This document shows positions 22,901-55,275 of a DNA stretch of 64,000 nucleotides, one piece after another. This DNA is from Allomyces arbusculus (taxonomy: Eukaryota > Blastocladiomycota > Blastocladiomycetes > Blastocladiales > Blastocladiaceae), in contig JADHYV010000017.1 in assembly GCA_027604705.1 (NCBI GenBank), forward strand, positions 337,451-401,450, given 5' to 3'. Below the pieces are notes generated by a model that had not been told where the DNA came from, searched no databases, and saw only the letters and a program-made list of their open reading frames with translations. Position numbers and translations under genes: made by a program. The stretch's first letter is position 1. The number at the start of each line of letters is the position of its first letter.

Positions 22901-23755
22901 TCAATAATCGGACTTGTCAGCCGCCTCGGCCTCGTCCACGTACGCGAGCCGCTCCACCGGATCCTGCGTGGCCAGTGCCAACCCGACATATGGCCTCTTG
23001 AGTTGCGGCATCGATTCGGCGATGTCCATATAGATTTCCACGGCCCGGTCCCTATGGCCGCGGGCCAGGATGCAATCGGCGAGCCCGAGCTTGGCGCGGT
23101 AATATCTCGGGTCGAGCTGGTTCGCTTTTTGGTACTTGCGCACCGCGTCATCGGATAACGGAATAACGTGCAGCTGGGTGCGCACGTCGCCCTGGCGCTT
23201 GTAGTACTCGAGATCGGCGAGCCCGCACAGCAACCGCGTGATGGGCTGGCTCGTGTTGTGCAACGCCTGCTCGTAATGCTGTTTTGCGCGCTGCAGTCGC
23301 TCCGTTTTGGACAGGTGGCGGTCGGCAGCGGGAAGCCCGTGGTTGAACAAGTAGCAGTCGCCGAGCCCGATAATACCCAGCACAAGGCCGTGCTGCGTCG
23401 CCTTGGTGTAGTAGTCGAACGCGAGCGCGTAGTCGGGTTTCAGCGAGCACTTGGCGCTGCCGTAATAGAAAATGTCGCCTAGATACACGAGCGCCATGTA
23501 CATGCGATGCAATGCGGCGGCTTCTTCGAACAGTGGAATCGCTTGGAGCACATCGCCATTGCCGTGGTGGTAGACTTCAAGTGCGTGCTGGAACGCGTCT
23601 TGTGCTGCGCGCAGGTCCGACGGCGGATGCAGTGGCGCGGCGTTTGCTTCGGGTCGTGTTTCTCGGACGAGCCGGGCATAGGGCGGCGGTGGAGACGACG
23701 AAGGCGAGCGTGAACTTGCGGGCGAGTGCGGGTCGTTCGTATTTGGTGGAGACAT
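22901..23755 (-). CDS. Sel1-like/TPR-type repeat protein, short paralogue of the neighbouring pseudokinase tail
   Basis: Intronless, 284 residues. After ~45 disordered Ser/Pro residues it is a helical repeat protein of Sel1/TPR type: ALVYLGDIFYYGSAK, KATQHGLVLGIIGLGDCYLF, LLCGLADLEYYKRQGD, YYRAKLGLADCILARGHRDR and ESMPQLKRPYVGLALATQDP. The whole repeat region matches, at roughly 60 percent by eye, the C-terminal ~230 residues of the gene immediately upstream on the same strand (24492-28052), down to the closing EAEAADKSDY versus EAEALDKADF. It lacks the helical and kinase-like parts. Most simply, it arose by tandem duplication of the 3' end of that gene and acquired its own start. Function unknown; Sel1 repeats usually mediate protein-protein contacts. 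Confidence 0.75.
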   Translation of the reverse strand: MSPPNTNDPHSPASSRSPSSSPPPPYARLVRETRPEANAAPLHPPSDLRAAQDAFQHALEVYHHGNGDVLQAIPLFEEAAALHRMYMALVYLGDIFYYGSAKCSLKPDYALAFDYYTKATQHGLVLGIIGLGDCYLFNHGLPAADRHLSKTERLQRAKQHYEQALHNTSQPITRLLCGLADLEYYKRQGDVRTQLHVIPLSDDAVRKYQKANQLDPRYYRAKLGLADCILARGHRDRAVEIYMDIAESMPQLKRPYVGLALATQDPVERLAYVDEAEAADKSDY

Positions 23756-24491: not shown

Positions 24492-27400
24492 TCAGAAATC
24501 AGCCTTGTCCAGGGCCTCGGCCTCGGTCCCGTACCCGTTCCGCTCGACCGGGTCTCTTGTCGCGAGCGCGAGTCCGATATACGGCCGCTTCAGCTTGGGC
24601 ATCGACTCGGCGACATCCATGTAAATCTCGAGCGCCTGGTCTTCCTGCCCCCTGGCCAAACAACAGTCAGCGAGCCCCAGCTGCGCGCGGTAGTATCCGG
24701 GCTCAAGCTGGTTCGCGTCCTGATACTTGCGCAGCACCTCGTCCGACAACGGGATCACCCTGAACTGCGTGCGCAGTTCGCCCTGGTGCTTGTAGTATTC
24801 GAGATCCGCCAACCCGCACAGCAGCCGTGCCGTTGGTGAATTCGTGTTGCGGAACGCCAGGTCATAGTGATGCGCCGCTTGCCGCAACCGAGTCTCCTTC
24901 GGCTGGTTCGCGTCCGGCACGCCGAGGTTGAACAGGTAGCAGTCGCCAAGCCCGACGTGGCCCAGGATCATGCCGTTCTGCGTCGCTTTGTAATAGTAGT
25001 CGTAGGCGAGCGAGTACTTAGGCTTGATGCGGTGCTTGGCGTTGCCGTAATAGTAGATATCGCCAAGGTAGACAAGCGCCTCGAACTGCCGGTGGTTAAT
25101 GTACGCCGACTCGAACAGCCGAATCGCCTGGACCACGTCGCCGGCGCCGTGGTTATAGATCTCGAGCGCTTGCCGGAAGACATTGCGCACCGGGTAGACG
25201 GCGCGCGAGTCGGAATCGACCGAGTAGACCGAAGATGCGTACTCGGACCGCGAAACGCCGGGCGCGGAACTGTGGTACGACGGCGGCCGCGGACTTGCCG
25301 GGCGGAAGGCCTCGCTGTCGAACCCTGTCATGGTCGTGCCCATCGACGCGGTTCGGCTCGGCGGCAAGGGCGGGAGAGCAGAAGCACCTGCGCGCGGCGT
25401 CGTCGGTGCCGTGGCTGGCACGGGCACATCCTTGACGTTCTCGTAGGCCGCGTCGAGCGCGGCACGAACCCCCTCGAGCTGTGGCCGCGCAAGCACGTCC
25501 TGCGTGAGACACGCCATGCACAAGTCGGCGAGGTCGGCGTCGATTCCGGGCACGGGCGGGACGGGCACTCCGTTGTTGAGTTTCGGAATGAGCGTGGCGA
25601 ATTCCTCGGTCGCAAACGCGAGAAACTCGGTTTCCGTCAGGAGCGCGTGCATGACGGCACCGAAACTCCACACGTCCGACGGCAACAGCGGCATCCCGCC
25701 ACTGAAGACTTCGGGCGCAAGGTAACGCCCGCCGTCGGCCGCGTCGTCCTTGGGCGACTGCCAGTTGCTCACGTGGAACGCGCCAATCACCTTGACGTTG
25801 CGCCGCCGGTCGAGCAGGATCGAGTGTGTTGACAACGTGCCGAGCGGCAGACCCAGCTCGTGCATTGTTTGCAAAACCGACGCAACGTCGTGCAAAATGT
25901 CGATCTTGGCGCGCAGCGACAGTGGCGTCTCGGCCCCGTTGGCCAGGACCTCGGCGAGCGGCTGGAACGGTTTGGCGGGGGCCTCGGTCACGAGCGCCCA
26001 CTGGTGCCCGACAATCGTGAGCCCGTGAATGTGCAGCAGCGCCGGATGCGGCTGCCGCAGTGTGGCGCGCGCGCGCAGGTGCATGATCAGGTCGTCGGGC
26101 AAGTCCTCGAGCGAGGTCTGCACGAGCGGCCGGATCAGGACGGGGATCCCGCGCAACGTCGCCGAGTAGCACAGCGTCATGCCTGGCACGGCCAGTTCCG
26201 ACACCTCGTCAAAAGACGAACTCACAATAAAGTAGGCCTGCATGTCCTGCGGCGAGAGCGGCGCCAGCGAGTCGGTGCCGTCCCAGACGTCCTTGGCGAG
26301 AATGCGCTGCAAGTTGCGCTGAATCGCGGCGCGCTGGTCGGCGAGCTTCGAGTTGGCCGCCTCGTCCTGCGCGGCATCGTCTGGGCGGACCGCGTCGAGA
26401 AACCCGCCCACGGCATTCACGTCAATCGCCAGGTCCTGCAGCAGAGCCGGCGCGTTGATGCTCAAACTGTAGTGCGCGGCCGAGAACATGGCCACGTCCC
26501 GCGCAAACGAAAAATCGGCGAGAATGTCCTGCACTTGCCGCTGCGTGATCATCGTGACGAGCGCGCGGATCTGCCGGACAAGGTCGATCGCGGCCGCGGT
26601 CCAGCACGCCTCGTACCGCTGGTTGTCGCCGTCATACAAGAACACGACGTTGGGCTTCATGTCCGGGTCGATCGGGTACTTGGACGAGACGGCCTCGACG
26701 AGCCGACTGTACTCATCGATCAGCCGCTGTGCCTTGTGCGGGTTCTCGGGCGAGGCCTCGCGCAGCCACGTGAGCTTGCGCACGAGACTCTCGATGACGA
26801 TGGCCCTAAGCCGAGGAGACAATGAGCGTGAGCAAGTGAGACACAGGAAATCAAAATGCGAACAAAAAACAAGATCACGTACCAGCCAAACTCGACGCCG
26901 AGGAAATGGTCGAGCAGCGACGCGTCCGACGGGATCAGCGCGTCCAAGTCGGACGGGACCATGAACCTGACGCCGTGCCCCTCAACCGTCAACTTGTGCA
27001 GCACGTCGTGGTACATTCGCTCCGTGATGCGGCTCACCGTGGCCATTTCGAGCGCCGGGAAGTTCTGGCACAGAAACTCGTGCACGGCGCGCGAGAATCG
27101 GTCGAGCTCAATAGCGTCGGACCACTGCCGGTGCCGCCACAGGTCGCGCACCTCGGTATTCTTGATCGGCACGAGGTATTTCGGCATCGCATCGAGCTTG
27201 CGGTGAATCATGCCAATTTCGCGCGCCATCATCGAGACATTGGCGTTGACCGCGTTGAGCGTCTTTTGCTGCTTCGACATGGACTGGCTGAGCTTGGTCA
27301 TGTGCCCGAGCACGCGCGCCTCCATGGCCGCGACCAGTTTCTCGTTGGCGCGCGGCGCGTCCTTGAGCTGCGAGAGCACGGCGCGCATCGCGTCCGACAT

Positions 27401-28880: not shown

Positions 28881-31800
28881 TCACTCGGCCGCGACCGCCT
28901 GGCCCTCGAATGCCATGGCCGGTGTTGCCGCGGCCATCATCTCGTGCTGGTGCTGACCGGCCTGCTGCTGCTGCTGCGCTTGTCCTTGGGTCTGTGCTTG
29001 TCCTTGTCCTTGTGCGTGCCCTTGTCCCGCGTCCCCACCTGTCGTCTCCGGCCCGAGCACCTCATCCACCAACGACGCGAGCACCTGCACGACCAGCCCG
29101 CGGTTCAACGCATCCACTTGCACGAGCGCCAACGTCGCGCGCAACCCCGCCGCGGCCGCATGCTTACCGAGCAAATGCCCGACAGCATCTGGCATTGCCG
29201 CTTCCAGTGCAGCTAAGACGACGGCGGGATCCTCGACGTCGTGCGGCTTGTGGTGCTCGTGACCGGGCGCGCGCGTGTGCCAGATCCCACCGGGCCAGAG
29301 CACGTCCACGACCGACGTCTGCAGTGCGTGGGCGAGGAACGTCGGGGACGACAGTTGGTCAATGACGGTGCCAACACTCGCTTGTATGTGGGCCGCGAGG
29401 ACCGGGCGCAGGACCGGGCGGAGGACGGCGAAAAGCCGTGCGCGGATGGTGCCGTCGAGCCCGAACACGTGCTTGACGACCGAGAAGGCGGCTTCCAGGA
29501 GCGCGTCGGTCTCGCGCGGGGAGAGCGCTACCGAGGACGCGGTCGGTGGTGTTGCGGGTATCGAAGGACTCGGTGCGGGTGACCGCGACCGGGTCGTCGT
29601 GCGCCGGCTGACTGCTGTTGCTGGTTCCTTGATAGACTCGGCATCTTGCCGTACATGCTCGTCGTTCCCACCATTGCCACCGCTCGCTGCCCCGTTTTCG
29701 CCAGTCTTGCCCGGCCGCCGCTTGAATGACCCGAGCCTCGACGCGCGACGCACCAACTTGCTCGCGCCCCCCGCGGCCCCCGCGGCGGGCGCGCTCGGCA
29801 GCGCCGGCAAGTTCGGCAACGCCAACGTCAACGTCGATGCGAGCGTCGACGCCGACGACTTCCTCCTCAAACTCACCGTCTTCTCGGACCCGGCCGTCGA
29901 CACGGGCCCCAACCCATCCTCCCCCTCTTCGGCCGACGCTGCGCGCGACTTGCGTCCAAACGAGGGCATCGGGGGCAAATGCGCCGGGACGAGTGTGGTT
30001 GCGTTACTGCTCATCGACAGCGACGACACTTTGCGTTTCAGTTGCGACCCGCGGTTCGTCCACGCCGACCCGAACGCCGATCGTTTCTCGCCGAATCCTT
30101 TGAACGCCGACCGCATGCCTTTGCCGACATTCGCGGTGAGAGCCGACGCGGAACTCGCGATCCCGGACAGGGACGCGGCCACCTGGTGTCCTTCCCTGAC
30201 AACCGTCTCGGCAAACGGCGTGCTCGGTGACGGAGGCGGTGGGGGCAACTTCGCCGATGCCGCCTGTGCGGGTTTCGCCGGCGCGCGGTGATCGCCGCGC
30301 ACCCACTCCTCGAGCGCGACCAGCGCACACTCGACCTGCGATCGCTGCGTCATGAGCCGCGAGACCGCATCGTCGTCGTCGATGGCCATTGCGTGCCGCA
30401 GCATGGTCTCCAGCACAAGGTACTGCGTCTGGAACGTGACCATTGACGACGCGACAAAGTGCGCGTCCCCGGCCACCGCCGGTCCATGGTCCACGGCGAG
30501 AAGCGCTGCGTGCCGTGCGGCCAGGGCAGCCACTGGATCGACTTCCGCCAAAACCGCGTGCAATGCGGGGCGGTCAGCGACCGTGAGCGACTGCGCGCGG
30601 CGGCGGCGTGGGACACGCGGACGAGTGACGCGCGCGACTCCCGCCAGGAGAGCGGCCACCGCTGCGTCCTCGCTTGCCGCGGCCTGCCGCTTCGTCTCTT
30701 GTCCGGCAACGTACGCGGCGACGCGCGCGTCCAAGATACGCTGCACTTCCGCGGCGGCCGCATCAAACACGGTCGCGTCCGGGTCAGCGACGAGTGCTTG
30801 TTCCACGTCACGCGCCCACGGTTCCGGGGGCAAGACGGCGTGTTTGCCCGTTAAGTAGGCATCGACCGTATCGAACCCTTCCTGCTGCAATAACGCGCGC
30901 GACGACGGATCCGCCGGATCCAGCAGGTCCGTGAGCAACTTGAAGGACGCGGCGGCCTGCAAAAAGGCGACGAGCCGCGTCTGCTTGGTTGCATCGAGGT
31001 ACTCGTGGAAATCGGCGAGCAACGCGCCGCCGTGCGCTTCGAGCGCGGCCCAGGTGCGTGGGAGCGCCGGGAGTGGCGGCGGGGGCGAGAGCGCGCGGGT
31101 TGCAGGTTGCAGAGGAGAGAGCGACGCGAGCGAGAGCCCGTCGGACGGGGTGGATGCGAGTGAGTCATGGTCAATGTGCACCGGGTCGTCGACAAGCGCG
31201 CCACCGCCGTCCTCGTCGTGTCCGACCAGGACCAGGTCGAGATCGTCAGGACTGCGCGCATCGTCTGCTTCCGCCGCGTGCGCGACGAGCGGGGGAACCG
31301 GCTCAGGATACGCCACCGGCTGCAGTTCCGCCGACGGCGGTGCCGTGCTTCCGGTGCGCTGTGGCAATGCCGGTGCTGCCGCTGCGGCTGCAGTTTCAAC
31401 GGTGATGTCGGGCACGGCAATAACCGGTGCCGGCACGCGCTCGAGCTCGAGCCACAAGTCCGCGACCGGTTCGTTCCCACCGTGAATCGGCGTGAACGTG
31501 ACCCACCCGACGTGCGGCAACTCGTCGAGCGTCACCGTGACGGTGCCAAGCGGCTCGAGGACGATCTGGTCGTGGTCAGTGGCGTGGCTGCGGCCCAGGT
31601 GCAGAACAACGACGGGCGGCGTGGGCATGCCGACGGTTCGCCAGGGGCTATTCACGCGGGAGAATACACGTGAGCCTTTTCAGGCTGGACGCGCGCAAGG
31701 AAATTCACGGAATCGAGACACGTACAAGGACAGACTTGCATCGAAAATGTAGGACGCGTTCGAGGTGCCATTCACGACGGGGGCCACCGTCTCGGCATGG

Positions 31801-33152
31801 TCCTGGAATGAAACGGTGATGCGCATCTCACTCGGGTCCAGGTCCGTCAGCACATTGGCGTGGCCCTTGGTCTGGATGACACGCGCATTCAGCTCGTCGG
31901 TGATCACCTCCTGTGCTTGCGCGGGTGCACCCTGGCCAGCTGCTCCGTTGGCGGGGGCTGTTAGGGCCGAGAGGAGCATGTGGTTGATGAAATGCGGTGC
32001 CGAGGCCTGGCGTATGGCAGGCCAGAGCGCAGCCGAGCACAGCAGTTCTACGAGCATGGCCAAAACCAGCGGGCATGAAGCATCTTGGTCGGGTAACCAC
32101 GCATGCAACAAGCGGCGCGCAATCGACCGCAATGCGACAGCGTGCCGCATCGGATCGGCAGCACGCGCCAGGACCGAGTGCGGGTTCGCGGCTATGTGCG
32201 AATCGAGAGCACCAGCAACGTCGGCGAGCGGGTTAGCGAGTGTTGGCTCGACTTCGTCATACCAACCGTGAAACGCTTTCAGGAGCGCGACCAGGTCGCC
32301 GGTCGCGCGCGAAGCGACGGAAACGAGCAGTTCCTGCGGTGCGCGCGCCGTCAGCGACGCAGCAGCGTTCATGACCACGGCATCGATGGTGGACGCGACG
32401 GCGTGCGGGAAAACGGCGCGGTCCGCGTCGGGCCCGGGCGCAGCGACGGTCGGCAGGTACCACGTGTCGACAAAGTCGCGCAGGACATTGTTGCGCACAG
32501 TGGCAATGACCGTATCGAGCGCGCCGCCGTGGTCAAGGTCGAGGGTCGGGAGCGGCATGGTGGATTTGCCAGCGTGTGGCACATGCACTCCCGCGTGATG
32601 GTGCGTCGCGGCATCGTCGCCCCACCGGCGTCGGCGCGTGCGCTGCTTGCGGCGGCGGTGCGTCGTGGTCGTTGCGGCGGCTCCTTTGGGTTCGTGCACG
32701 GTCGACGCAAGTGGGGCCGAGTTTGGTGACATCACGCACTCTTGGTTGTCATGGTGCGCGCCACGACTTGCAGCCGAGACCAGCGGGCGCAGATCGTCGT
32801 CTGAGATGCCAGCCGAGTGATACTCGGAATCCGACTCGGAATCCGACTCGCTGTCGCTGCCCGGGTCCATGGCAACGAGCAGCGCCGTGGCAGCGAGCAC
32901 GACCGCGAGAGCAAAGACGGTCGCGGGCAAAAACGCGGCAGGCCACAGGAGCAGCGCGACCGTGCCGATGGCCAGCGCGGCAGCCAGCGGGTGCTCGAGC
33001 GGCACGGCCGGGATCCAGGCGAGCGCACGCTTGACGGGTACGAGCGCGAGGTTGGCGCGGCGATGCATGGCGTCGAGGTCGAGCTTGACGTGCCAGGAGC
33101 CGGGTAAGATGGCCGACGCGCGATCGGCGATAGCGGCCGCGGCGCTGTCCAT
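28881..33152 (-). CDS. PXA-RGS-Nexin_C protein (SNX13/14/25, Mdm1 relative) without visible PX
   Basis: ER-anchored membrane-contact/trafficking protein of the RGS-PX sorting nexin type. Exons 33152-31726 and 31647-28881 with a 78-nt intron; 1,397 residues. A hydrophobic hairpin at ~54-95 is the ER anchor. An acidic SDSE repeat follows, then PXA at ~210-395 (from LDTVIATVRNNVLRDFVDTW to PHFINHMLLSAL), an RGS-like domain at ~681-791 (ADFHEYLDATKQTRLVAFLQ, LLQQEGFDTVDAYLT, DARVAAYV), and Nexin_C at ~1186-1339 (AAFSVVKHVFGLDGTIRARL, VVDVLWPGGIW). Between RGS and Nexin_C, where PX should sit, the sequence is Ser/Ala/Lys-rich and disordered. The tail is Gln/Gly-rich. The start at 33152 has a strong GCCATGG context; the frame is open up to an ATG at 33386. 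Confidence 0.85.
32821..32852 (-). repeat. 12-bp minisatellite in acidic linker
   Basis: The unit ctcggaatccga is repeated about 2.5 times; read on the minus strand it encodes the Ser-Asp-Ser-Glu repeat after the membrane hairpin. Confidence 0.75.
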
Positions 33153-33776
33153 GGCGGTGGGCAGCGGTAGCGCGTGCGGAGCAGTCGCGGCAGCAGCAGG
33201 AGCGAGAGCGAGCGGCCGGGCGTGTCGTGGGCGGTGTGGCGTCGCTGGCGTTGGCCCCGTATTCGTCGTCGGCGTCGGCGTCGGCGTCGTCGTCGTCGCG
33301 TCGTTGCAGCGGCGAGAGCGGCGGCGGAGCGCGCGGGCGTGGAGGAGCGCGCGGAGCGGAGCGGTGAGCGTTCTTGCCTGCGCCACTTGAAGGGCACGCT
33401 GCTATCGCGTGGCGCACGTGCTACGCGCGAGCGTCCCGCGGCCGCGTCTCGCGGCGCGTGCGACCGCCGTCACGTGTGCCGCGGCTCCTGGCGGCCTCCC
33501 GCTGCTGTTGGCGGCCCGCTGGCCGTGCGGTCGACGAGCTGCGGCAGTCTGCAAAGATCGACGAAACCGCTCGGCCGCCTTGACCACGACCGCGACCCGC
33601 GACACACTGCGCTGCTGCTGCTCACGTCGTTGCCGCTGCAGACCACCAACCCGCAAAGGAACGCGAGCTGCTCACGCCCCGCGCTCGATTCGCTGTTCTC
33701 GTCGACGCAACGACGCCGACTACTCCCACGCGCGCCAGCTCCTGTCGCCGCCACCTTCATCGAGCCTGCTTCCACC
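33153..33776. other. Divergent promoter, PXA-RGS gene / coronin
   Basis: About 620 bases between the two start codons. Contains a GTCGGC/GTC microsatellite (about 33261-33301). The minus frame of the PXA gene stays open through part of it, so a longer N-terminus is possible. Confidence 0.5.
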
Positions 33777-35699
33777 ATGTCGCGCTTCGGTATGCGCACC
33801 CCACCTGCTGCAATCCAGTCGCGCACGCGAACGCGTCGAGGCGCGACGCGACGCGGCAAGAGGAGATCAAATGCGACGCGACTGCACCGCACCGATGCCG
33901 TGATCGCGACCACCATGCCCTAACCTGCCGTATTGCCCGCGTCGTGCCCACCCTTCAATACCAGTCCGTGCCAGCAAGTACCGCCACGTCTTTGGCACGC
34001 CCGCCAAGCGCGAGGTCTGCTACGACAACCTCAAAATTTCGTCGTCGGCCTGGGACACGAACCTCATCAAGGTCAACCCGCTCTTCTTCTCCATCAACTG
34101 GAACGCGGCCGGCGGCGGCGCCTTTGCCGTGATCCCGCACGACTACACGGGTACGCTTCATTTGTTCGATTGTGCCCTGACCACCATGCTCACTCGATCG
34201 ACCCCCCTGTCCTTGTTTGCTAACTCTCATCCCCTGCCCGCTCCCCTACACCAGGCAAGCTCCCTGACGGCCTCCCGCTCTTCAACGGCCACACGGGCAC
34301 CGTGCTCGACACCGATTTCCACCCGTTCAACGACCATGTCATTGCCTCGGGCGCCGAAGACTGCAAGGTCATGATTTGGAAGATCCCGGACGGTGGCATT
34401 CGCGACCACGTCTCCACGCCCGCCGTCACGCTCTCGGGCCACCAGCGCAAAGTCGGCAACGTGAGCTTCCACCCGACCGCCGACAATGTGCTCGCGTCTG
34501 CCGGTGCCGACGTATGTCCCCCCCCCCCCCCCCTGTCTTGCTTATCGACGTGTCTCCGACATCACTGACGCGTGCCCTCTGCACCACTAGTTTGTCGTGA
34601 AAATGTGGGACATTGAGCACGCCGCCGAGAAAATTGAGCTTGGCGGGCACGGCGAAATTATCCAGTCGATGACCTACTCGTGGACCGGCGATATGCTGGC
34701 CACCACGTGCAAGGACAAGATCTTGCGCGTCTTTGATATTCGGTCCAAGACGGCGGCCGTCGAGACGCTCGGCCACCAAGGCGTCAAGGGATCGCGCGCC
34801 GTATGGCTCGGCGACCTTGACAAAATTGTGACGGTCGGGTTTTCCAAGACGTCGGACCGGCAAATCTTTGTCTGGGACTTGAAGAACCCCAAGACGCCCA
34901 TTAAGACGCAGGAACTCGACATGTCGGCGGGCATTCTCATGCCGCATTACGACAAGGATACGTCGATCTTGTTCTTGGCGGGCAAGGGCGACGGCAACAT
35001 TCGCTACTACGAGGTACGGCTGTTGGTTGTGTGGGTGGAGTGTCGACTGGACGACACTTACCAGCGCGCACCAACGGTTTCTAGTACGATGACGCCCAGA
35101 CCGAGCTCTTTTACCTGTCCGAGTACAAGTCGTCAGACCCGCAGGTACGCTTAGTCTTCCTCGCCCGGCCCTCCCCCATCCGACCCGACGACACACGTAA
35201 CTCACAGCGCCCCTCCTCCACCAATCCTTAGCGCGGCATCGGATTCCTGCCCAAGCGCGCTTGCGACGTCTCGCAGCAAGAAATCGCGCGCGCCTACAAG
35301 GTGCACAATGCCATGGTGGAGCCGATCTCGTTCACGGTCCCGCGCAAGGCCGACACCTTCCAGGCCGATATTTTCCCGGACACGGTCGGCGACGAGCCCT
35401 CGCTCACGGCCGACGAGTTCTTTGCCGGCAAGACGGCGCCGCCCAAGCTGATTTCGCTCGAAAAGGGGTTCAAGGCGACCAACAAGGCTAAGGAGTTTAC
35501 CGCCAAGCAGGCCGAGGGTGGGAGTGTCGCGTCGGCGGGAACGGCCGCGGAGCCTGTGGGGGAGAAGGAGTTGCAGGACGCCTACAAGTCGCTCAAGTCG
35601 GAGAACGAGACGCTCAAGAATGAGTTGGTCCAGAAGGAGCTGCGCATCAAGCAGCTCGAGGCACTTCTCAACTCGGCGAGTTTGGCCAAGGATAACTAG
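33777..35699 (+). CDS. Coronin (actin-binding WD40 protein)
   Basis: Binds F-actin and Arp2/3 and controls actin patch turnover. Six exons: 33777-33789, 33965-34150, 34255-34511, 34591-35013, 35085-35144 and 35232-35699; introns 175, 104, 79, 71 and 87 nt; 468 residues. The start MSRFVRASKYRHVFG is the invariant coronin N-terminus and is rebuilt only by splicing the 13-nt first exon. A seven-bladed propeller follows (AWDTNLIKVNPLFFSINW, GHTGTVLDTDFHPFNDHVIA, GHQRKVGNVSFHPTADNVLA, VKMWDIE), then the coronin C-terminal extension (GIGFLPKRACDVSQQEIARA) and a short coiled coil (ELVQKELRIKQLEALLNSA) for trimerisation. The third intron carries a 16-base C run. Confidence 0.96.
34518..34533 (+). repeat. 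Poly-C run in coronin intron
   Basis: Sixteen C in a row directly after the GTATGT donor of coronin intron 3; likely unstable in length or prone to sequencing error, with no effect on the protein. Confidence 0.8.
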
Positions 35700-36985: not shown

Positions 36986-38452
36986 TTAGCAGAACGACGG
37001 GTGCGCGACCGTCGAGTGCACGTCGATTGACTGAGCCTGGCCCTGAGCCTGGAACGCCGAGACATCAGCACCGCCGTGGCAGCCACCAGCCGAGGCATCA
37101 ATCGACTGGTACTGGCCCTGCGACTGCGCCGCGAACACATCGGCGCCACCATGACCCGAGATGTCGACCGACTGCGTCTGGAACTGCGCCTGCGACGCGA
37201 ACACATCAGCACCGCCGTGGCCGCCAGCCGACGCGTTGATCGACTGCCCCTGGAATTGCGCCTGCGACGCGAACACGTCAGCGCCGCCGTGACCACCTGC
37301 CGACACATCAAGCGACTGCTGCTGGAATTGGCCCTGCTGGGCCGAAACGTTGGCGCCACCGTGGCCGTGCGCCGACGCATCAACCGACTGGTACTGGAAC
37401 TGGGACTGGTCGGCCGAGATCGACGAGCCGCCGTGGCAGCCGCCGCCCGACACGTCAATCGTCTGCTGCTGGTACTGCCCCTGGTTGGCCGAGATGTTGG
37501 CGCCACCGTGGCCGTAGGTCGACGCATCAATCGTCTGGTACTGGCCCTGGGCTTGGCCAGCGTGCACGCCCGTCGCATACCACGAGCCGTCGTCGACGTT
37601 GATCTGCTGCGCTTGCCACTGGCCCTGCGACGCGTTCACACCCGCACCAGCGTGGCCGCCCGCCGAGATATCAATCGTCTGCCCCTGCCACTGCGCCTGC
37701 GAGGCCGAGACGTCGGCACCGCCGTGGCAGCCACCACCCGAGACGTTGATCGACTGCGACTGCGCCTGCGCCTGCGAGGCGTTGACCGAGGCACCGCCGT
37801 GACCACCACCCGACACGTTGATCGACTGCGCCTGCCACTGAGCCTGGTCGGCGGAGATCGACGAGCCGCCAAAGCCGCCACCCGAGACGTCAATCGACTG
37901 CCCCTGCCACTGGGCCTGCGAAGCGTTCACGCTCGCGCCACCGTGGCCGTGCGCCGACGCGTCAATAGTCTGGTACTGGAATTGCGCCTGGTCGGCCGAA
38001 ACCGACGACCCACCGTGGCAGCCGCCGCCCGAGACGTTGATCGACTGCGACTGCGCCTGCGCCTGCGTGGCGGAGACGGACGAGCCGCCGAAGCCGCCGG
38101 ACGACACGTCGAGCGACTGCTGCTGGAATTGACCCTGCTGGGCCGAGACATTGGCGCCGTGGCCGCCCGAAACGTTGATGGACTGGCCCTGCGCCTGTGC
38201 CTGCGTCGCCGAGACGTTACCGGCACCCGACGCGTCAATCTGCTGGTACTGGAATTGACCCTGCTGGGCCGAGACGTTGCCGGAACCCGACGCATTGACC
38301 GACTGGTACTGGCCCTGGAGCTGGGTAGCCTCGACCTGGCGGATGAGAGAGAAACGCAAAATTGTGGGTCAGTTTGGGCCAAACGCGGTGGTTGACCGGG
38401 TGGAGAGGGTTGAGCGTACCGAGGTCGTGTTGTAGCAGGGAGCGATGGCCAT
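36986..38452 (-). CDS. 19-repeat Gln/Ser/Gly-rich predicted beta-solenoid protein
   Basis: Exons 38452-38420 (encodes MAIAPCYNTTS) and 38335-36986, joined by an 84-nt GTACGC...CAG intron; 460 residues. From residue 12 to the end it is nineteen tandem units of about 19-26 residues with consensus V-S-A-x-Q-A-Q-x-Q-x-Q-S-I-D-V-S followed by a Gly-rich turn such as GGGCHGGA. The alternating pattern suggests two short strands and a turn per repeat, as in curli-type or other beta-solenoids, with Gln ladders. No Lys or Arg is visible in the spliced product and Pro is nearly absent. There is no classical signal peptide. A TATA box 64 bases upstream of the ATG suggests strong or regulated expression. 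No family recognised; a structural or amyloid-like role is inference. Confidence 0.85.
37010..38330 (-). repeat. Tandem coding repeat array, unit about 60-75 bp
   Basis: Nineteen diverged copies encode the repeats of the 460-residue protein. Units that share the CHGG or HGHGG turn alternate through the array, which suggests duplication of multi-unit blocks. Confidence 0.85.
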
Positions 38453-38515
38453 GTTGATGAGAAGTGGGTAGTGGAGTGCACTGGGATGCTGTCAAGGCGC
38501 GGCGGGTGCACCTGG

Positions 38516-38523
38516 TATATATA
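38516..38523 (-). promoter_or_regulatory. TATA box of the repeat-protein gene
   Basis: Perfect TATATATA on the minus strand, 64 bases before the ATG at 38452, in otherwise GC-rich DNA. No comparable TATA element was noticed in front of the other genes. Confidence 0.6.
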
Positions 38524-39988
38524 CGCGTCGGATCACGCGCAGCCCTTTGGCCGTGCGGGACGTGCGAGGGCGTACGGCAACGGAGAATGAGCGTCCACCG
38601 CTCTCACACGCGTGAGGGTCGAACCGCAGCGGTCCCGTCACGGACGAGTAGTTCCGCGCGCAAGGGACATTGTGATCAGGGCGAGCTTGTGTGCGCGGCC
38701 GCCACGTCGCGCACGCAACGGCCCTCACGCAGTACAAAGGAGAACCTTGTCCTTGCCGTCGTCGTTCTGCACCAGCGTGCTCCAGCGCGGCGGTAAGTGG
38801 AGGGCGATCTGAGCGGCAGGGCGGCTGCTTGCTTGAGACGCAACGTCAAACTGACGCGACGGTCCGTTGCATTGTGATCGGGCGTGGGCGAAGTGAACAG
38901 GATTGGCTTCGCCGAAGGTACTGAAGGCACAGCTTCCAAATTCGTTGAGCCATGCAAAGCGATGCAAGCACTACTCACTCGATGCAGGGAAACTTTCTTG
39001 ATTTTCTTGAGTCACAAACGCGTCTCACGCCATGTGTGGGACAGAATGGCGACAAAAAGGTGCATTCAGAGATGCAACCCGCAGGGCCGGTCCGCAGGGA
39101 CGGTGAACTTCGCCAAATCTCGTGAAACCATTTTAGTCACGAAACTCGAAAACGCACGCGCGAGCCCGCACGCAGGCCGAGAAACCGAGGGATGAACGGC
39201 AAGGAGAGGGTGGCGAACAAAGGCGACGGTGTACTTCGCCGAAACGGTGCGTAGTCATCCTCGTTCATATTCTTGCGTCCGAAGGGTTGTCGACGATTTG
39301 CAGAAGTGGTGGGTTCTTTGAGTTGTCTTGCCCGTCATCCTGGCGACCTGCTCACTCATCATCATTTTCATGATCACCGAGGTGGAGTGTGGCACGTGTT
39401 GGTTGCGGGGCGAGGGTCGCGCAACACTCGCCCCTCGTCAACCGTGGTCGAGGGTGCGACGACCTGCCCTGGCCGAGGGCGTGATGGCCGAAGGCACCCG
39501 CCGGTCGAGGGTGAGGCAGCTTGCGCAGTACCAAGGGATACGCACCGGGACGCGCTGAATATGGTGCGCTGTGGTTTGGGTGCAAAGGGCCTTGTCGACG
39601 ACAAGGGGCGCGGCAAAGGCGGTGTGAACAGCAGCTATCGAGCACGCTTCGCGCCGGCGAGCCGGGGATGGTGGCCACAAAGCGCGCCAGTATGAGCGGC
39701 CGTTGGCTACACTGTTGGCTGTGGCTGCTGCACAGTGACCGTGGACGACAGTGCTTCATGAGCATGGCCACGAGCCAGTCCGCTTCGCCAATACTCTGAA
39801 TATGCGCTTCCTTCACCTGGTCCGACGAAGCGCTCTGCTCGAAATGGAGTTTATCTCAAGTGGAGCGCGAACTTTGCGCCATCTCATCGTTCGTGCTGTT
39901 GGAGGAACAGTAAATGGCAACACTCCATGTAAAACATCAACGGACAATAACCTCCCACCATCTCCACCCATCCACCCACCAGCGGCGC
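38524..39988. other. Intergenic region, 1.5 kb
   Basis: Upstream of the repeat-protein gene and downstream of the LIM-RapGAP gene. No coding frame with a domain, no RNA gene recognised. Confidence 0.5.
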
Positions 39989-42900
39989 TCACGGCAGCGG
40001 CACGTCCTCATCATCCGCACTCGCCGCGGCCGCTGTCGCCAACATGGTCATACTCGTCGCCGTCCCCAAATTTCCCTTGCGCTTCATGCCCATGGCCGCA
40101 AGAAACCCGCCCGTACGCGATTTGTGCGTGCGCGGCGGCGACCCAACCGTCAGCTGCTCGGCCGTCGGCGGATCAGTGACTTGCTCGGCTGCACCGGGCT
40201 TGTCGTTGTTGCGGCGCGACGTAAAGTCAAACATGCGCTGCACCGGCGATAGTGCCGGTGCCTGCGGGTGCGACGACGGCGACGCTGATGGCGGTGGGGC
40301 TGGACCAAGATGCTCGTCGGCGGCCAACGACGTGGCTGAGGGCATTACGACGGGCCCCGACTTGCGCCGCGCCGACCGCTTGAACAAGTCAAAGTCGGAC
40401 CGCGCCTTGGCCGGTTTCGCGCCTGGCGGAAGCAAGTCGTGGTCGTCGCTCGTCGCACATGAGCCTGCGGAGGCGGCGGTCGCGGCATCGGCGGCTGCCG
40501 ACGAGTGCGCCGGCTTGCCTTCGCCCTGTGTCTTGATGTAAAACTGGGTCACGTCGTCTAAGAGCATGCGCCGCGTGCGTGCGTGTAATTTCTGGAACTT
40601 GGCCGCCTTGATCGCCGCGCTCTCGGCATTGATCACTTTCGCCCACAAGAAATGTCGCAACTGGACGGGGTCCGCAAAAAACGCGTCGGGCGGGAGCGGG
40701 GGGCCAAATGCCGGCACGTCGGCCTGGGACGTGACGGCGACACGGTAACCCGCAACGCCGGCGAGAATGCACGGCTCGACGATAATGTAGACGGTCAGGT
40801 ACTGGGACCGAATCATGCGCGGGTCGAATGCGGGCGCCGCGTCGTTGGCCTGGTTGAAGGTGCGGTCGTTGAAGACGATGCACACGATGTCGTTGCCAAT
40901 CAACGACTTGCGCGCGATTTGCTGCACGTCACGGTCCGAGTACGGCAACATCGTCGACACGTGCGCCATGATCTCAAACGCGCGCGCACGCGCATAAAAC
41001 GAGTGCGTGCCCTGGTGGTTGTGCTTGGTATCGAGCCCACCGTCAAACCCGTCAAACCCGGCGAGCGCGACGCGGCGGCCCAACACCCACAGGAACGACT
41101 CAAATGCCGGCGAGTGCGTTTCGTTCCCGAATACCTGCTCCTCAGTCGTTTGCCCGTGCCGCATGTAGACAACGCCGACCTTCACGTGGAAACACAGCTG
41201 CAGTTCATCGAGCTTGACGAGATCCTGCACGACCCGCGGCGACCGCACCTTGATCAGCTTGTTCATCGGGAACCGCGGGTAGACGTACTTGATCAGTTCC
41301 TTGCGCCGGCGCACGCGTGATTTGGTCTCGGCCATGGGCACCTCCAAGCGGAAATCGCGGTCGGCCGTGCGCACGATCATCCGGTAAATCCCTTGGTGCT
41401 CGTCGCGGCGAATCGAAAACACCAGCGGGCCCGTAAGGACCGTGTCGTCGATGCCCGCCGCGGCGACTGCCGCATCGCCATCAATCATCGCGACGTAATT
41501 GTTATGCGTAAGGCTCGCGAAATGGGACCGGTAGTACATGGACGCGACGTCCACGTGCTCGAGCACCGTCAGTTCCGACGCGCCGGGCACACGGTAGTCG
41601 GCGTAGGCCAGCGGCACAAACGTGTCGTACTTGGTAGAATCCACCAGCCACGGGTTGGCCCCACGCGCGCGGAAGGTCGTGCCGCTCTTGAGACTCGCGG
41701 TCATAGACACGGGCGACCCGCCCGACTCGGCCGCGTCGAGTGGCGCCGTCACGGGAGACGACGGCGCGGACGTGCGCGCGAAGGTCAAGGCCGCACGCCC
41801 TCTCGCCATCGTGACGGACGAGGGAGCCGGCGCCGGTTCGGGGACTTCCATCACCGCCGCCATGGGGGACGGCGGTAATGGTGATGCGCGCTGCGAGTGC
41901 GGCAACGCCTCGATCGTGTACCCGTCGCGTTCCGCGACAAGCGGCGGCACAACCGCGGCTGACGGGTAGGCCGGCACGTCCTGCAAGTCGGTGGTCCCTC
42001 TTGGTTTCAGCGGTTCATTGCCGAGCGTGCCCCTACCGAGCGTGCCCCTGCCGAGCGTGCCCATCCCAAACGCCTGCGGTGGGCTCGGCGGGGTCAAGTG
42101 CATGTGCATGAGCGGTTCCGACGCGTGCAGTTTCGTGTGCGTCAGCGGCGCACCTGGGCTCGTGCCCATCCCACCACCCGAGTCCGAGGACCCACCGAGG
42201 GCGTCGCATGACTTAGAAACGACATCGAGCGTGGAAATGGGCGCCGAGGCGGACGCGGGCACACCCGCGCGCGCCGACCTGGACGACGAGGCCTGCGATC
42301 CGGACGAGTTCAATAGTAGATCAAACGCGTCGGTCGAGGCAAAGTCGTAGGATCTGCTGTTAGCCGTGGTCGTGCCGTGCGCCGTGCTGGCACCCGATCC
42401 GGTCCCGAGCCGCGACCGCACCGTTGGGGACGAGGTGTAGGCGTCGACGATCGCGTCAAGCGACACGTCCTCGTCGGAAATCCAGTCGCGGGGCTCGTTG
42501 CCCGCAGGCTCGGCGGTGCGCGAGTCGACGGTGCTGCTTTTGCCCCAACCTACCGGGTGGAGAAGCATTGCTGAATGGTTAGAATGCAGAAACTGCGCGC
42601 GGGAATGGGGTGGCGGGTCAAGTAGTAGACAAAAGCGCGAAAAAACAAACAGGGAAAGCAACAGAGAAAACAGTGGCGGGTGCGTACTCCTGGCAGAAGG
42701 CGGATCGGCATTCGTGTCGCTACTCGTCTCGGCACCAGATTCCTGCACTTTTGGCGACAAGAGCGGTTGGGCTCTTGCCTCGCCCAATTTATGCTCGGGT
42801 AATTCCTCGGATTCGGCGCTGCCGAGCGCAGCCGCCGCCAGCCGTAATGGGCGCAACAACGAGGGCGGCGAATTGGCGGGTGCGGAATGGTTGCGGTTAC

Positions 42901-43797
42901 GCATAGACACGGCGCGCGTGAGCGAGCTGGCATTGCTCGTCGAGATGGGCGATCCGGCCGTCGGCGAGCTCGCCTTGCTGCTGCCTTCCTCAGCGAGAAT
43001 GGGCTCGGCGCCATCGAGGTTCTTGACCTTGTCCATGAACGTGCCCGAGTTGGTGAGGATCGACATGGGGCGGCGCAGCGTGCGCGAGAGAAACGAGCGC
43101 TTGGTGGGGGCGCCGGCGGTCGGGACCGACGGGTTGTGCTTTGGGCAGTAAATGTCGCCGTTAAAGCTGACGGCCTGCATGAGCGACAGCGGTTTCTTGC
43201 ACTCGACGCACTTGAAGCACTGATGAGGGTCCAAAAGCAAGGAGGTGGTGGAGAAGAGGGCAGGGCCCGGCGCGTCAGATCACGGCCTTGTTCGCGGACC
43301 CATGCCGCCGAGTTGCAGGAGCAGCCGAGAGGCAAATGCAACCAAATGGCATTTGCGGCACAGATGTGCAGCAGCGCCCTGCCTGCAAACGACGTTGGCG
43401 ACGACAAACGCACCTTGCGATGGTAGAGCATGCCGTCAAACGAGCACGCCTCAAACGTATAGACGCCCTGGCCGCACACGACGCACGCGTGATGGCCCGA
43501 GGACGTTGGCACCGACGCGGCGCTCGCGCGCGACATGCGTCTCAGCACCAGGTCCTCGGTATCGGCCGCGGGCGACCCATGCAAGAGCGCGGCCGAGGGC
43601 GCGTCGGATGGCGGCTCCACGTCCGTCACGGGCGCGTGGTGCGGGTGATCGGAGGGCCCCGCGGCGCGTCGAGTGAGTGGCGACGAGGACGCAGACGCCG
43701 ACGAGACGACGAGCGGCGACGTGGCGCCGTCAGGACGCGGCATCGCGGCAACTTGCTCGCCACGCGCACCGGGGCGCAGCGGCGGATCAGGATCCAT
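39989..43797 (-). CDS. LIM domain plus Rap/Ran-GAP protein
   Basis: Predicted GTPase-activating protein for a Rap/Rheb-class small GTPase. Exons 43797-43414, 43219-42688 and 42549-39989; introns 194 and 138 nt; 1,158 residues. A LIM zinc finger lies at ~105-160 (CVVCGQGVYTFEACSFDGML, then HRKCFKCVECKKPLS, ending YCPKH); its second half is on exon 2, so the splice is needed to complete the zinc ligands. A ~470-residue disordered Ser/Thr/Pro region follows. The Rap-GAP domain covers ~633-975: RKELIKYVYPRFPMNKLIKV, VGVVYMRHGQTTEEQVFGNE, FESFLWVLGRRVALAGFDGF, and the catalytic Asn-thumb helix SLIGNDIVCIVFND (Asn ~858 present). The tail is basic and disordered. LIM fused to RapGAP suggests targeting to the cytoskeleton or a membrane scaffold. 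Confidence 0.88.
42021..42065 (-). repeat. 15-bp unit, three tandem copies
   Basis: The unit ccgagcgtgcccctg, repeated three times, encodes GTLGR-type pentapeptides in the disordered middle of the LIM-RapGAP protein. Confidence 0.85.
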
Positions 43798-45095: not shown

Positions 45096-48000
45096 ATGGA
45101 CGTGCGTACCATCGACTGCCTCGGCCCTGATCCGATCCATTCCAATGCATTACCAGTAATTAATTCAACCGGAATCACTCTCTGCCCAGTTCGCCACCCA
45201 GCTCTACCAGCTCCTGAGCACCACGGCCGCCGCCACCGACTCGGAGACGCTGCGCCAAGCCACGACGACGCTTAACAAGCAGTTCTATTCGAACGCGCAA
45301 TGCCTGCCCGCCCTGATCCGCATCGCTGCCGAGGCCGCTGACGCTCCGTTGCGCCAGCTTGCTGCCGTCGAGGCGCGCAAGCGCGTGGAGAAGTTTTGGC
45401 TCGAGACGCCCGCCGATGTGCGCGCGCAGCTGCAGCAGGTGCTCGTGCAGCGCGTCGTGGCCGAGCCCGACACGCGCACAGCTCACGGCCTCGCCCGCGT
45501 CATCTCGGCTGTCGCTCGCATCGAGGTGCCTGCTGGTCGCTGGACTGAGCTGATCCCGCTCATGGTCCAGGCTGCGGGTACGTCGCCCACGGTCGCGCAC
45601 CGCGAAGTCGGCATCTACGTCCTGCTCGCTCTCTTTGAGGTGCTCGTCGACCACATGCAGCCGCAGCTGCCCACGCTTTTTGACCTGTTTGCCAAGACGC
45701 TCGCCGACCCGGAATCGCGCCTGGTCCGCGTCACGACGCTCGAGGCCCTTGGCGAAGTTGCCGAGTACGTTGGTCCCGAGGACAAGCGACTCATCCAGTA
45801 CCTGATCGACCTGACGCCGCAAATGGTCACGGTCCTGCGCGAGGCCATCGAGGCCGGCGACGAGAACGGCGCGCTGCGTGGGTTCAACGTCTTTGACACG
45901 CTCCTCTCGTCCGAGACGAACGTTCTCAATGCGCATTTCGCGCCGTTTGTCGAATTCCTCGTCGGCACGTTTGCCAACACGACGCTCGCCGACTCGATCC
46001 GCGTCATGGCCGGGAACATGCTGGTCCTGCTCCCGCTCTACCGCCGCCAGCGCCTCATCAAGCTCAAGCTCTCGGAACCCGTCCTGACCCACATCCTGCC
46101 CGTGACCACCGAGCATGACGCTGACGAGGACGAGGACGAGGACACGCCCGGCCGCGTGGCTTTGCGTGCCATCAACTCGTTCGCGACCAACTTGCCACCG
46201 CAGCAGGTCTTCCCGTTCATCTCGGCCAAGGTCTCGGCCTACGCGCAGGACCCGCACCCGGGCGCGCGCCGCGCCGCCATGATGTGCGTCGCGTTGATCC
46301 TCGACGGATGCGCCGACGCGATGCGCCCGCACGTCGCCGACTTGGTCGACCTGGTCCTGCACCTCATGCAGGACGCTGATGTCGGTGTGCGCAAGGCCGC
46401 CTGCATTGCCCTCTCTGCGCTCGCCGACGCGCTCGACGGCGAGGTCTGCGCGCAGCACGCCAAGATTCTGCCCGTTCTGTTTGCGCTGATGCAGGACAAC
46501 GCCCACGTCGATGTCTTGCGCAACGCGACGAACGCGCTCGATGCGGTGCTCGACGGTCTTGGCGACGACATTCTCCCGTACATCCACGCACTCATGGAGT
46601 CGCTCGGCCACATGCTGGCCGTCCCGGACGTCAAGGTGCGTCAAGTCGTGACGGCGGCGATCGGGTCGGCCGCCCACGCGTCGGGCACCGAGTTTGTCAC
46701 GTATTTCCCGCACGTCTACCCGCGGATCGCCGAGATCATGGCGATTCAGTCCGAGGACGCCGAGGAAATGCTGCTGCGCGGGATTGCGACCGACACGATG
46801 TCGGCTATGGCCGATGCCGTCGGCGCCGATGTGTTCCGGCCCTACTTGCAGCAGGTGGCGGCGCTTGCCACCGAGTCAATGCAGCTCGACTCGCCCAAGC
46901 TCAAGGAGTGCGCCTACTGCTTCTTTGGCGTTCTGTCGCGGTCGTTCAAGGCCGAGTTTACGGCGTTCTTGCCGACGCTCGTGCCCGTGCTCTTCGAGTC
47001 GATTAAGACCGAGGAAAATTTCTTTGAGGACGACTCGGAGGACCTGGATCTGAGCCAAGGGTCGATCCAAATTGCCGCTGGGTCGTCGTCGGCTGCGGCG
47101 GCCAGTGGCGCGCTCGTGGCGGCTGCGGGTGGTGACGACGGTTTTGTTGACATGGACGACGACGATGAGGACGACGATGACGAGGACGCTTTTAAGGTCA
47201 ACTCGGCGATTGCCGAGGAAAAGTCGACGGCGATCGATGTCCTCGGTGACCTGTTTGAGGCGACCGAGGCCGAGTTCTTGCCGTACCTCGACGAGACCAT
47301 GTCGCTCCTGCTCGAGAACACGACGCACTACCATGACGCCGTGCGCAAGTCGATCATTCTCTCGCTGTTCAAGATCCTCGCGGCCATGCACAAGATGAGC
47401 AACCCGGCCGCGTGGCAAGCCGGTCTCCCGGCGCCCGTGCCGCTGCACGAGAATGTGGCCAACATGGCGCACGTGGTCATGTCGGCGATCCTGACCATGT
47501 TCGAGGAAGAGGACGAGCGCATTGTTGCTGCCGAGCTGTGCGACGCCCTGCAGGGCGCACTGCGCCTTGTTGGCCCGGCGCTGATCCAATCGCAAGGCAT
47601 GCTCGACAAGCTCGCCAACCTGCTCCTCTCGGTCCTGCAGGGCAAGCACCTGTCGCAAATGGACGAGGACGGCGAGGACATGGACGCCGACGAGCTTGCC
47701 GAGTACGACGGGATGCTGATTGCTGCGGCGGGCGACGTTGTCGGCGCGCTCGCGCACGTTCTGGGTGGCGCCGCGTTCGCTCCCTACGGCCAGCGCCTGC
47801 TCCCGCAGCTCAACAAGTACTTTAAGCCGTCGTCGCAGACGTCCGAGCGGTCCATGGCCGTCGGTGTTCTCGCCGACGTGGCTGCGGGCTTGCGCGACGC
47901 CGTGACGGCGTGGCACGGGCCGATGCTGCACGTGTTCACGCGCGCGCTCGAGGACCCGGAACTGGAAGTGCAGTCGAACGGATGCTTTGGCCTTGGTGTC

Positions 48001-48522
48001 CTCGCCGAATTCACGACCACCGCCTACGACGCTGCCGCCCTGCTCGCGCCGCTCGTTCCGCGCGTCAATGCCCCTGCCGGTGCCGCGCCCTTGGACATCC
48101 CGCAGGCGCGCGACAATGCGTGCGGTGCCGTCGCTCGTATCCTGCTCCGTGCTGATCACTGGCGCACGCCCGCGGTCGTTGCGACCAACGCTCTCCCGCT
48201 GCTCATTGCGTCCCTGCCGCTGCGCGCCGACTACGAGGAGAACCGGCCCGTGTTTGACTTGATTGGGCACCTTCTGCGACTTGGTGCCGCGGGTGACGCC
48301 GACGCGCTCGCGCAGTTGCCGGCGGTCCTCGCGCCCATGGTGGCCGCGGTCGCGCACGTGCTGGCTGCCGAGGACGAGGTGAATGACGAGTCGCGCGCGA
48401 TGCTCGGGCAGACGCTGGTGGCGCTCGCCGCGTCGGCGACGCTCCGTGGGCCCGTGCAGGAGGCGGTGGCGGCGCTTACGCCGGAGATGCAGCAGGCGGT
48501 GCAGAAGGCGATGGCCGCGTAA
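45096..48522 (+). CDS. KAP123: Karyopherin beta Kap123 / Importin-4
   Basis: Nuclear import receptor for ribosomal proteins and histones H3/H4. Exons 45096-45101 (ATG GAC only) and 45190-48522 with an 88-nt intron; 1,112 residues, essentially the length of yeast Kap123. The protein is HEAT repeats throughout; the N-terminal importin region starts MDFATQLYQLLSTT and continues TLNKQFYSNAQCLPALIRIA. Two acidic loops are typical: DADEDEDEDTPGRVALRAIN near residue 320 and DMDDDDEDDDDEDAFKVNSA near residue 655. The C-terminal repeats include MLIAAAGDVVGALAHVLGG and ALEDPELEVQSNGCFGLGVL. The two-codon first exon is inferred from the GTGCGT donor and CCCAG acceptor; the rest is firm. Confidence 0.93.

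Positions 48523-52790: not shown

Positions 52791-55275
<2,485 letters not shown>

Follow-up and report, generated by a model that had tools for sequence, protein, structure and literature searches.

The locus at positions 36986 to 38452 of the window (the whole stretch of 64,000 nucleotides that was analyzed) raises the question of whether a ladder of glutamines repeated 19 times belongs to a genuine protein and, if so, what kind of structure such a protein might build. The first-pass annotation had described a gene with one small intron, a TATA box upstream, and a product with no classical signal peptide, no Lys or Arg, and almost no Pro; in its main points, this description of the gene and of its repeats is correct. 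The gene was read as two exons on the minus strand (38452-36986) with a product of 460 amino acids. Exon 1 (38420..38452, minus strand) begins with an ATG at 38452, preceded by an A at -3 as read from the sequence, and encodes MAIAPCYNTTS. When exon 1 is read through, an in-frame TGA is reached within the predicted intron (38336..38419, minus strand), an 84-nt GT..AG interval that keeps the frame and in which a CTGAC branch-like site and a pyrimidine tract can also be read. Eight acceptors would keep the frame with one common donor; the 84-nt intron is the shortest of these choices and was selected because unit 1 stays whole with it. Exon 2 (36989..38335, minus strand; 449 amino acids) carries units 1 to 19 and their Gly-rich loops, with the stretch from the first to the last unit core at 37016..38335, and a TAA stop codon follows (36986..36988, minus strand). 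The reported TATA box was found as GGTATATATAC at 38514-38524, 62-72 nt upstream of the ATG; this TATA-box-like element on the minus strand (GTATATATACC) is a consensus match only.

The 460 residues of the product (approximately 45 kDa, pI 4.6) include 84 Gln, 80 Gly, 67 Ala, 67 Ser, 2 Pro, and 1 Glu, with 0 Lys and 0 Arg, whereas Lys plus Arg account for 6.8 to 11.5% of six other open reading frames (ORFs) of the window. No hydrophobic N terminus was seen in the protein, its best 12-residue Kyte-Doolittle mean being 0.675. To look for an upstream exon encoding a signal peptide, minus-strand ATG frames of at least 20 codons in 38336-39988 were scanned too; none had a 12-residue hydrophobic mean exceeding 1.6 close to its start, in a scan that a spliced leader would escape. 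On the opposite strand, an antisense ORF of 439 codons (37076..38395, plus strand) crosses the repeat and could mislead ORF-based gene finders; it is probably a by-product of the 72-bp periodicity of the DNA.

As announced by the first-pass annotation, the protein is built from 19 units carrying a Gln ladder. Each unit has 20 to 25 residues and consists of a 16-residue core, V-x-A-x-Q-x-Q-x-Q-x-Q-x-[IVL]-[DN]-[VAI]-S, followed by a Gly-rich loop. Five columns of the core are invariant (Ala-3, Gln-5, Gln-7, Gln-9, and Gln-11, each in 19/19 units), and three more are nearly so, with V or I at column 1, I, V, or L at column 13, and D or N at column 14 in all 19 units. The pattern QxQxQxQ occurs exactly 19 times, against a maximum of 7 and a mean of 0.49 in 10,000 shuffles of the protein. 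Thus, every unit has four one-sided Gln residues and none has five (QxQxQxQxQ, 0 times); QQQ is present 3 times, and the longest Gln run is of three residues (by eye). The Gly/His/Cys turn that had been ascribed to every unit was borne out in part: the loops are Gly rich and His is present in 13 of the 18 inter-unit loops, but the Cys turn (CHGG) is found in 4/18. The length of the loops ranges from four residues (GSGN, GAGN) to nine (GGGCHGGSS), and loops 1 and 2 have 4 residues each. The CHGG loops come after units 5, 9, 13, and 18, at a spacing of 4, 4, and 5 units, and their Cys or His residues might stack or bind a metal. Amino acid identity between units ranges from 20 to 84%, and the repeat is therefore not a perfect one. 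Near the middle of the array, unit 11 (37568-37639, minus strand) is an outlier, with the loop DGSWYATG and 20 to 50% identity to the other units.

Next, the constraint on the units was evaluated to ask which residues of the core are kept. For all unit pairs within this one gene, pN/pS was calculated in the style of Nei and Gojobori; read with the blurring that gene conversion and high synonymous divergence bring to comparisons between units of one gene, the ratio was 0.142 for the odd face, V-A-Q-Q-Q-Q-I-V (bootstrap, 0.089 to 0.21), and 0.999 for the even face (bootstrap, 0.81 to 1.26). In the four Gln columns pN is 0; both CAA and CAG are used in three of them, and the fourth is CAG in 19/19 units. 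When the core columns were split into two halves in every possible way, 11 of the 12,870 splits, the odd/even one included, separated pN at least as strongly. The faces are not cleanly divided, given that odd column 15 (V/A/I) has a pN of 0.365, above those of even columns 12, 14 (D/N), and 16 (Ser), with 0.345, 0.184, and 0.219, respectively. Two shifted frames of the units, in which 17 and 10 units were usable, gave pN/pS values of 1.47 and 1.20, respectively. A chance or noncoding tandem repeat would share with this locus the 72-bp repeat at the DNA level and the open frames on the opposite strand, but one would not expect it to show constraint specific to one frame, paired splice sites that preserve the frame, and columns invariant in 19/19 units, and we regard it as scarcely credible. 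Overall, these results indicate a real-looking, constrained repeat protein with a very regular glutamine face.

The alternation of constraint over 16 residues suggests a beta-strand with one packed face. A different explanation of the same regularity is that the protein is a mostly disordered Gln/Gly/Ser-rich repeat, condensate- or silk-like, in which the order of the units reflects repeat expansion. The composition fits if the organism is a fungus; fungal low-complexity regions are described as Ser/Gln rich and Lys/Arg poor (PMC11878562). Nevertheless, only one of the two faces is conserved, an asymmetry that expansion alone would not give, and synonymous differences are common (pS of 0.51 over all core columns) while Gln is fixed. 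Therefore, we consider disorder rather improbable and return to the packed beta-strand.

To examine this possibility, exon 2 alone was modeled by AF2 from the single sequence. The five models had pLDDT values of 82.0, 80.1, 77.7, 73.7, and 73.7, with a best pTM of 0.78, and the prediction was all-beta with no helix. Every one of the 19 units had at least 11, and up to 16, of its 16 core residues in strand, and the loops were mostly coil. DSSP of the model showed the core broken near columns 4 to 7 in 9/19 units and at columns 10 and 11 in 4/19; therefore, the 16 residues may not form one straight strand. AF2 is reported to produce confident but unrealistic solenoids for perfect repeats, as in 32 of 78 random repeats (PMC11795689). 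Because of this over-prediction, the antisense ORF of 439 residues, which repeats with the same period and is not expected to have a function, was modeled as a control, a single one and not a distribution. It gave pLDDT values of 63.5, 53.4, 39.8, 32.5, and 29.9 and a pTM of 0.56 and was also drawn as beta, indicating that the AF2 bias is at work; by AF2 confidence, the real frame is clearly preferred over this control. A Foldseek search with the model returned no match at E ≤ 0.001 in the PDB (38 matches up to E 10, the best at 0.55 and many being solenoids of the LRR, autotransporter, and polysaccharide-lyase kinds) and none at E ≤ 0.001 in BFVD (154 up to E 10, the best among the 50 listed being an uncharacterized phage protein at E 0.022 and TM 0.46). 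Regular beta-strand repeats, as proposed at first pass, are supported by the constraint mainly on one face and by an all-beta model that surpasses the antisense control; for a regular stacking of the repeats, the AF2 confidence stands beside the solenoid bias of AF2 and the lack of a significant Foldseek match in these databases. Taken together, a beta fold class is likely for the protein as modeled.

We also asked whether the units alternate, as they would in a solenoid with two units per turn. In a permutation test covering six lags and four column sets, uncorrected, the likeness of units at lag 2 was reached by 4 of 5000 permutations for face B plus loop, by 11 of 5000 for all 25 columns, and by 13 and 16 of 5000 in two runs for face B alone; direct neighbors also resembled each other, with counts at lag 1 of 23 of 5000 for loops and 111 of 5000 for all columns. 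The global contrast between odd and even units was not significant (373/2000 for face B plus loop, 156/2000 for all columns, 486 for loops, and 448 for face B). Gly comes first in 7/9 odd and 2/9 even loops (by eye; Fisher p of 0.057). The long alternation and the near-palindromic V-A-Q-Q-Q-Q-I-V would both follow from a solenoid with two units per turn, its odd units forming one sheet and its even units the sheet opposite, but duplication of pairs of units gives the same lag 2 signal.

The annotation of the protein as unrecognised held in the family collections searched. In Pfam, no family scored above its curated cut-off, and the best of three weak matches up to E 1 was the DUF2807 adhesin head (PF10988; E 0.00089), which at 19.5 bits stays below the cut-off of 24.2 and covers one stretch only. 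NCBIfam and PHROGs gave no match up to E 1, and the PDB sequences gave none up to E 1 with the single sequence or up to E 10 with a profile. An HMM of the units, run against six-frame fragments of the window, placed this gene alone above the inclusion threshold, the next best fragment having E 0.56. Peptide-pattern scans of viral contigs (22 and 273 candidate stretches) and genome contigs (89 and 113) yielded 0 relatives confirmed by tblastn, and tblastn against plasmids and phages yielded none at E 0.01; these collections held no eukaryotic genomes, and therefore the negatives say nothing about fungal relatives. The alignment used (A1) consisted of 10 three-unit pieces, 3 of which carry an initial M in place of the gene's V, a leading GTG having been read as a start, with a slight effect on two of the contig scans, the PDB profile search, and the hhalign comparison described below.

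The neighboring genes were inspected through ten chosen ORFs of the window, eight of which matched Pfam families at E ≤ 1e-4. These include two WD40 pieces (34597-35154 and 35301-35699), which we take to be a coronin, a Rap_GAP (39989-43240), an importin of the IPO5 type (45349-48522), a CTP synthase (53389-55275), a PXA domain (31680-33386), a Nexin_C domain (28881-31655), and a kinase with TPR (24492-26822, minus strand). By appearance, these are housekeeping genes of a eukaryote, and they do not point to a pathway. A second one-sided Gln run in the window, QGQGQAQTQGQAQQQQQ (28962-29012, minus strand), lies at a simple DNA repeat in the C-terminal part of ORF 28881-31655, which is sorting-nexin-like. 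By eye, the C-terminal TPR-like regions of the neighboring minus-strand ORFs 22901-23755 and 24492-26822 resemble each other, and the two ORFs have the look of tandem relatives. Moreover, ORF 9687-11693 (minus strand, 668 residues) combines, by eye, a poly-Asn run and Gln-rich tracts with a single stretch resembling a membrane span; it had no Pfam match at E ≤ 1e-4.

If the protein folds into stacked strands, the remaining question is what its four rows of Gln would do. How the nucleus of glutamine amyloid is structured is an old question, and designed sequences have been used to approach it (PMC10624427). From such sequences in yeast, that study describes a Q zipper, in which Gln residues interdigitate from strands with Gln at alternate positions, with the pattern (QXQXQX>3)4. 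There, strands of approximately six residues with three one-sided Gln were inferred to be enough for an intramolecular zipper, and segments of four Gln were predicted to be able to form a zipper but not to propagate, with which the data were consistent (PMC10624427). In [pin-] cells, amyloid appeared only with at least five one-sided or six two-sided Gln, while in [PIN+] cells, which hold a pre-existing prion template, it formed from the whole restricted-Gln series; the synthetic nucleus was made of Gln tracts linked by Gly3 loops (PMC10624427). The present protein contains the (QXQXQX>3)4 pattern of that report, with 19 QxQxQxQ units more than 3 residues apart, and it stays below the number for untemplated propagation (five one-sided or six two-sided contiguous Gln), a threshold that comes from engineered Gln-rich sequences in yeast and may not carry over to strands with V, A, and I.

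From the four one-sided Gln in 19/19 units, the five in none, and the Gly-rich loops, we infer a closed intramolecular Q zipper. Encoded by a single gene, the protein would be intracellular and structural, with 19 beta-strand units stacked on one another. Its odd face would point inward to the core, where the Gln residues, four from every unit, would line up as ladders flanked at both ends by aliphatic residues. These ladders would interlock with the Gln of the facing strand to form an intramolecular Q zipper, and the Gly-rich loops would turn the chain onto the next rung. The zipper would then close within the molecule, giving a rigid solenoid rod without free amyloid growth by itself, and this rod could serve as a cytoplasmic scaffold, rod, or lattice element whose variable, uncharged-to-acidic outer face is free for lateral packing. 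There is precedent for a Gln ladder in a solenoid, since a bacterial ice nucleation protein has been modeled with one internal Gln ladder (PMC3196904). On the sequence, the AF2 model, and the analogy with the designed zippers, a stacked-beta repeat protein with an interlocked Gln core and a closed intramolecular zipper is, in our judgment, an evenly balanced proposition. The Q-zipper core is plausible, and in the chain from a conserved face to a buried face, to interlocked Gln, and to the absence of growth, the certainty falls with each step.

The choice of the odd face as the core is the simplest reading of a face made of V/A/I ends and four Gln opposite one made of Ser, Asp/Asn, and variable residues. 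Alternatively, the Gln rows of a beta-solenoid could lie on the outside as a flat surface that binds an ordered ligand, such as a polysaccharide or ice, much as TxT faces bind ice. A binding face would likewise show up as an invariant row with even spacing along one side, and solenoids have been predicted for fungal ice nucleators (PMC12978214). Against an outward Gln face, V, A, and I/V are also part of the invariant face, and Ser and Asp/Asn are found on the opposite one, a distribution that agrees better with the inside/outside assignment; furthermore, the ice-nucleation family was absent from the Pfam matches up to E 1. We therefore hold a binding face to be quite improbable and keep the odd face as the putative core.

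As the functional amyloid suggested at first pass, the protein would be secreted unconventionally or released on lysis and then assemble into cross-beta fibers. Consistent with this, the strand-turn units are rich in Gln, Gly, and Ser and contain 0 Lys or Arg, one chain would offer 19 potential zipper strands, and all restricted-Gln sequences tested gave templated amyloid in [PIN+] yeast (PMC10624427). However, four one-sided Gln per strand are fewer than the five reported there for untemplated axial growth (PMC10624427), and the protein shows neither a hydrophobic N terminus nor a curlin match. Free amyloid growth thus appears unlikely, and we rank it below the evenly weighed closed solenoid. 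If the closed zipper is true, the cell would use the nucleus of polyglutamine amyloid as a safe building block. That selection here holds the one-sided Gln at exactly four per strand, one below the number for untemplated growth, and that the protein is the first closed Q zipper from nature, is a tentative thought that we lean against; among the open-access literature matches listed, judged by title and start of abstract, we saw no natural tandem QxQxQxQ repeat protein, a weak negative. A natural pattern repeated 19-fold would serve as a test object for Gln packing in an ordered core and for the restraint of growth, and the protein would add a family without an above-threshold Pfam match.

Finally, the protein was compared with known repeat systems. 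The calcium-binding repeats of RTX proteins have the motif GGxGxDxUx, and this family was absent from the Pfam matches up to E 1. Curlin CsgA consists of strand-turn-strand repeats of approximately 22 residues with Gly turns and Gln, and it is defined by a signal peptide and csg export neighbors. The 19-unit protein shares such repeats with Gly turns and Gln, but E. coli CsgA has no QxQ and a leader visible in its sequence, while the present protein has QxQxQxQ 19 times and no hydrophobic N terminus; likewise, the eight ORFs matched among the ten scanned belong to other, eukaryote-type families. Kinship with curlin, the comparison drawn at first pass, was not supported: none of the three Pfam families matched up to E 1 is a curlin, and hhalign of A1 against E. 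coli CsgA gave a probability of 0.2%. BLASTP of the repeat protein against CsgA as a single pair gave a best E of 0.010, from low-scoring Gly/Ser/Asn pieces.

The ice-nucleating proteins of bacteria and Mortierellaceae (InaZ type) are also tandem repeats predicted as solenoids, the fungal ones with the same solenoid as the bacterial; they have repeats of 16 residues that carry TxT, SLT, and YGS motifs, and a single Gln ladder (PMC3196904, PMC12978214). In contrast, the units here have 20 to 25 residues and four Gln rows, with no TxT in any unit (by eye), so that the 16-residue TxT repeat of that family is missing. The QA-repeat prion region of Cyc8/Ssn6 (Cyc8 is named in PMC10624427) resembles the present protein in its long one-sided Gln contiguity with Ala between, but it is one long tract, whereas here 19 spaced strands have conserved flanks. 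The comparison most relevant to the proposed core is with the Q zipper of polyglutamine nucleation and Orb2 (PMC10624427), which has the same one-sided alternating Gln strands and loops and whose (QXQXQX>3)4 pattern recurs many times over in the 19 units. Unlike that zipper, the repeat protein is natural and tandem, with V/A/I ends on its Gln face, Gly/His/Cys loops, and four Gln per strand instead of at least five.
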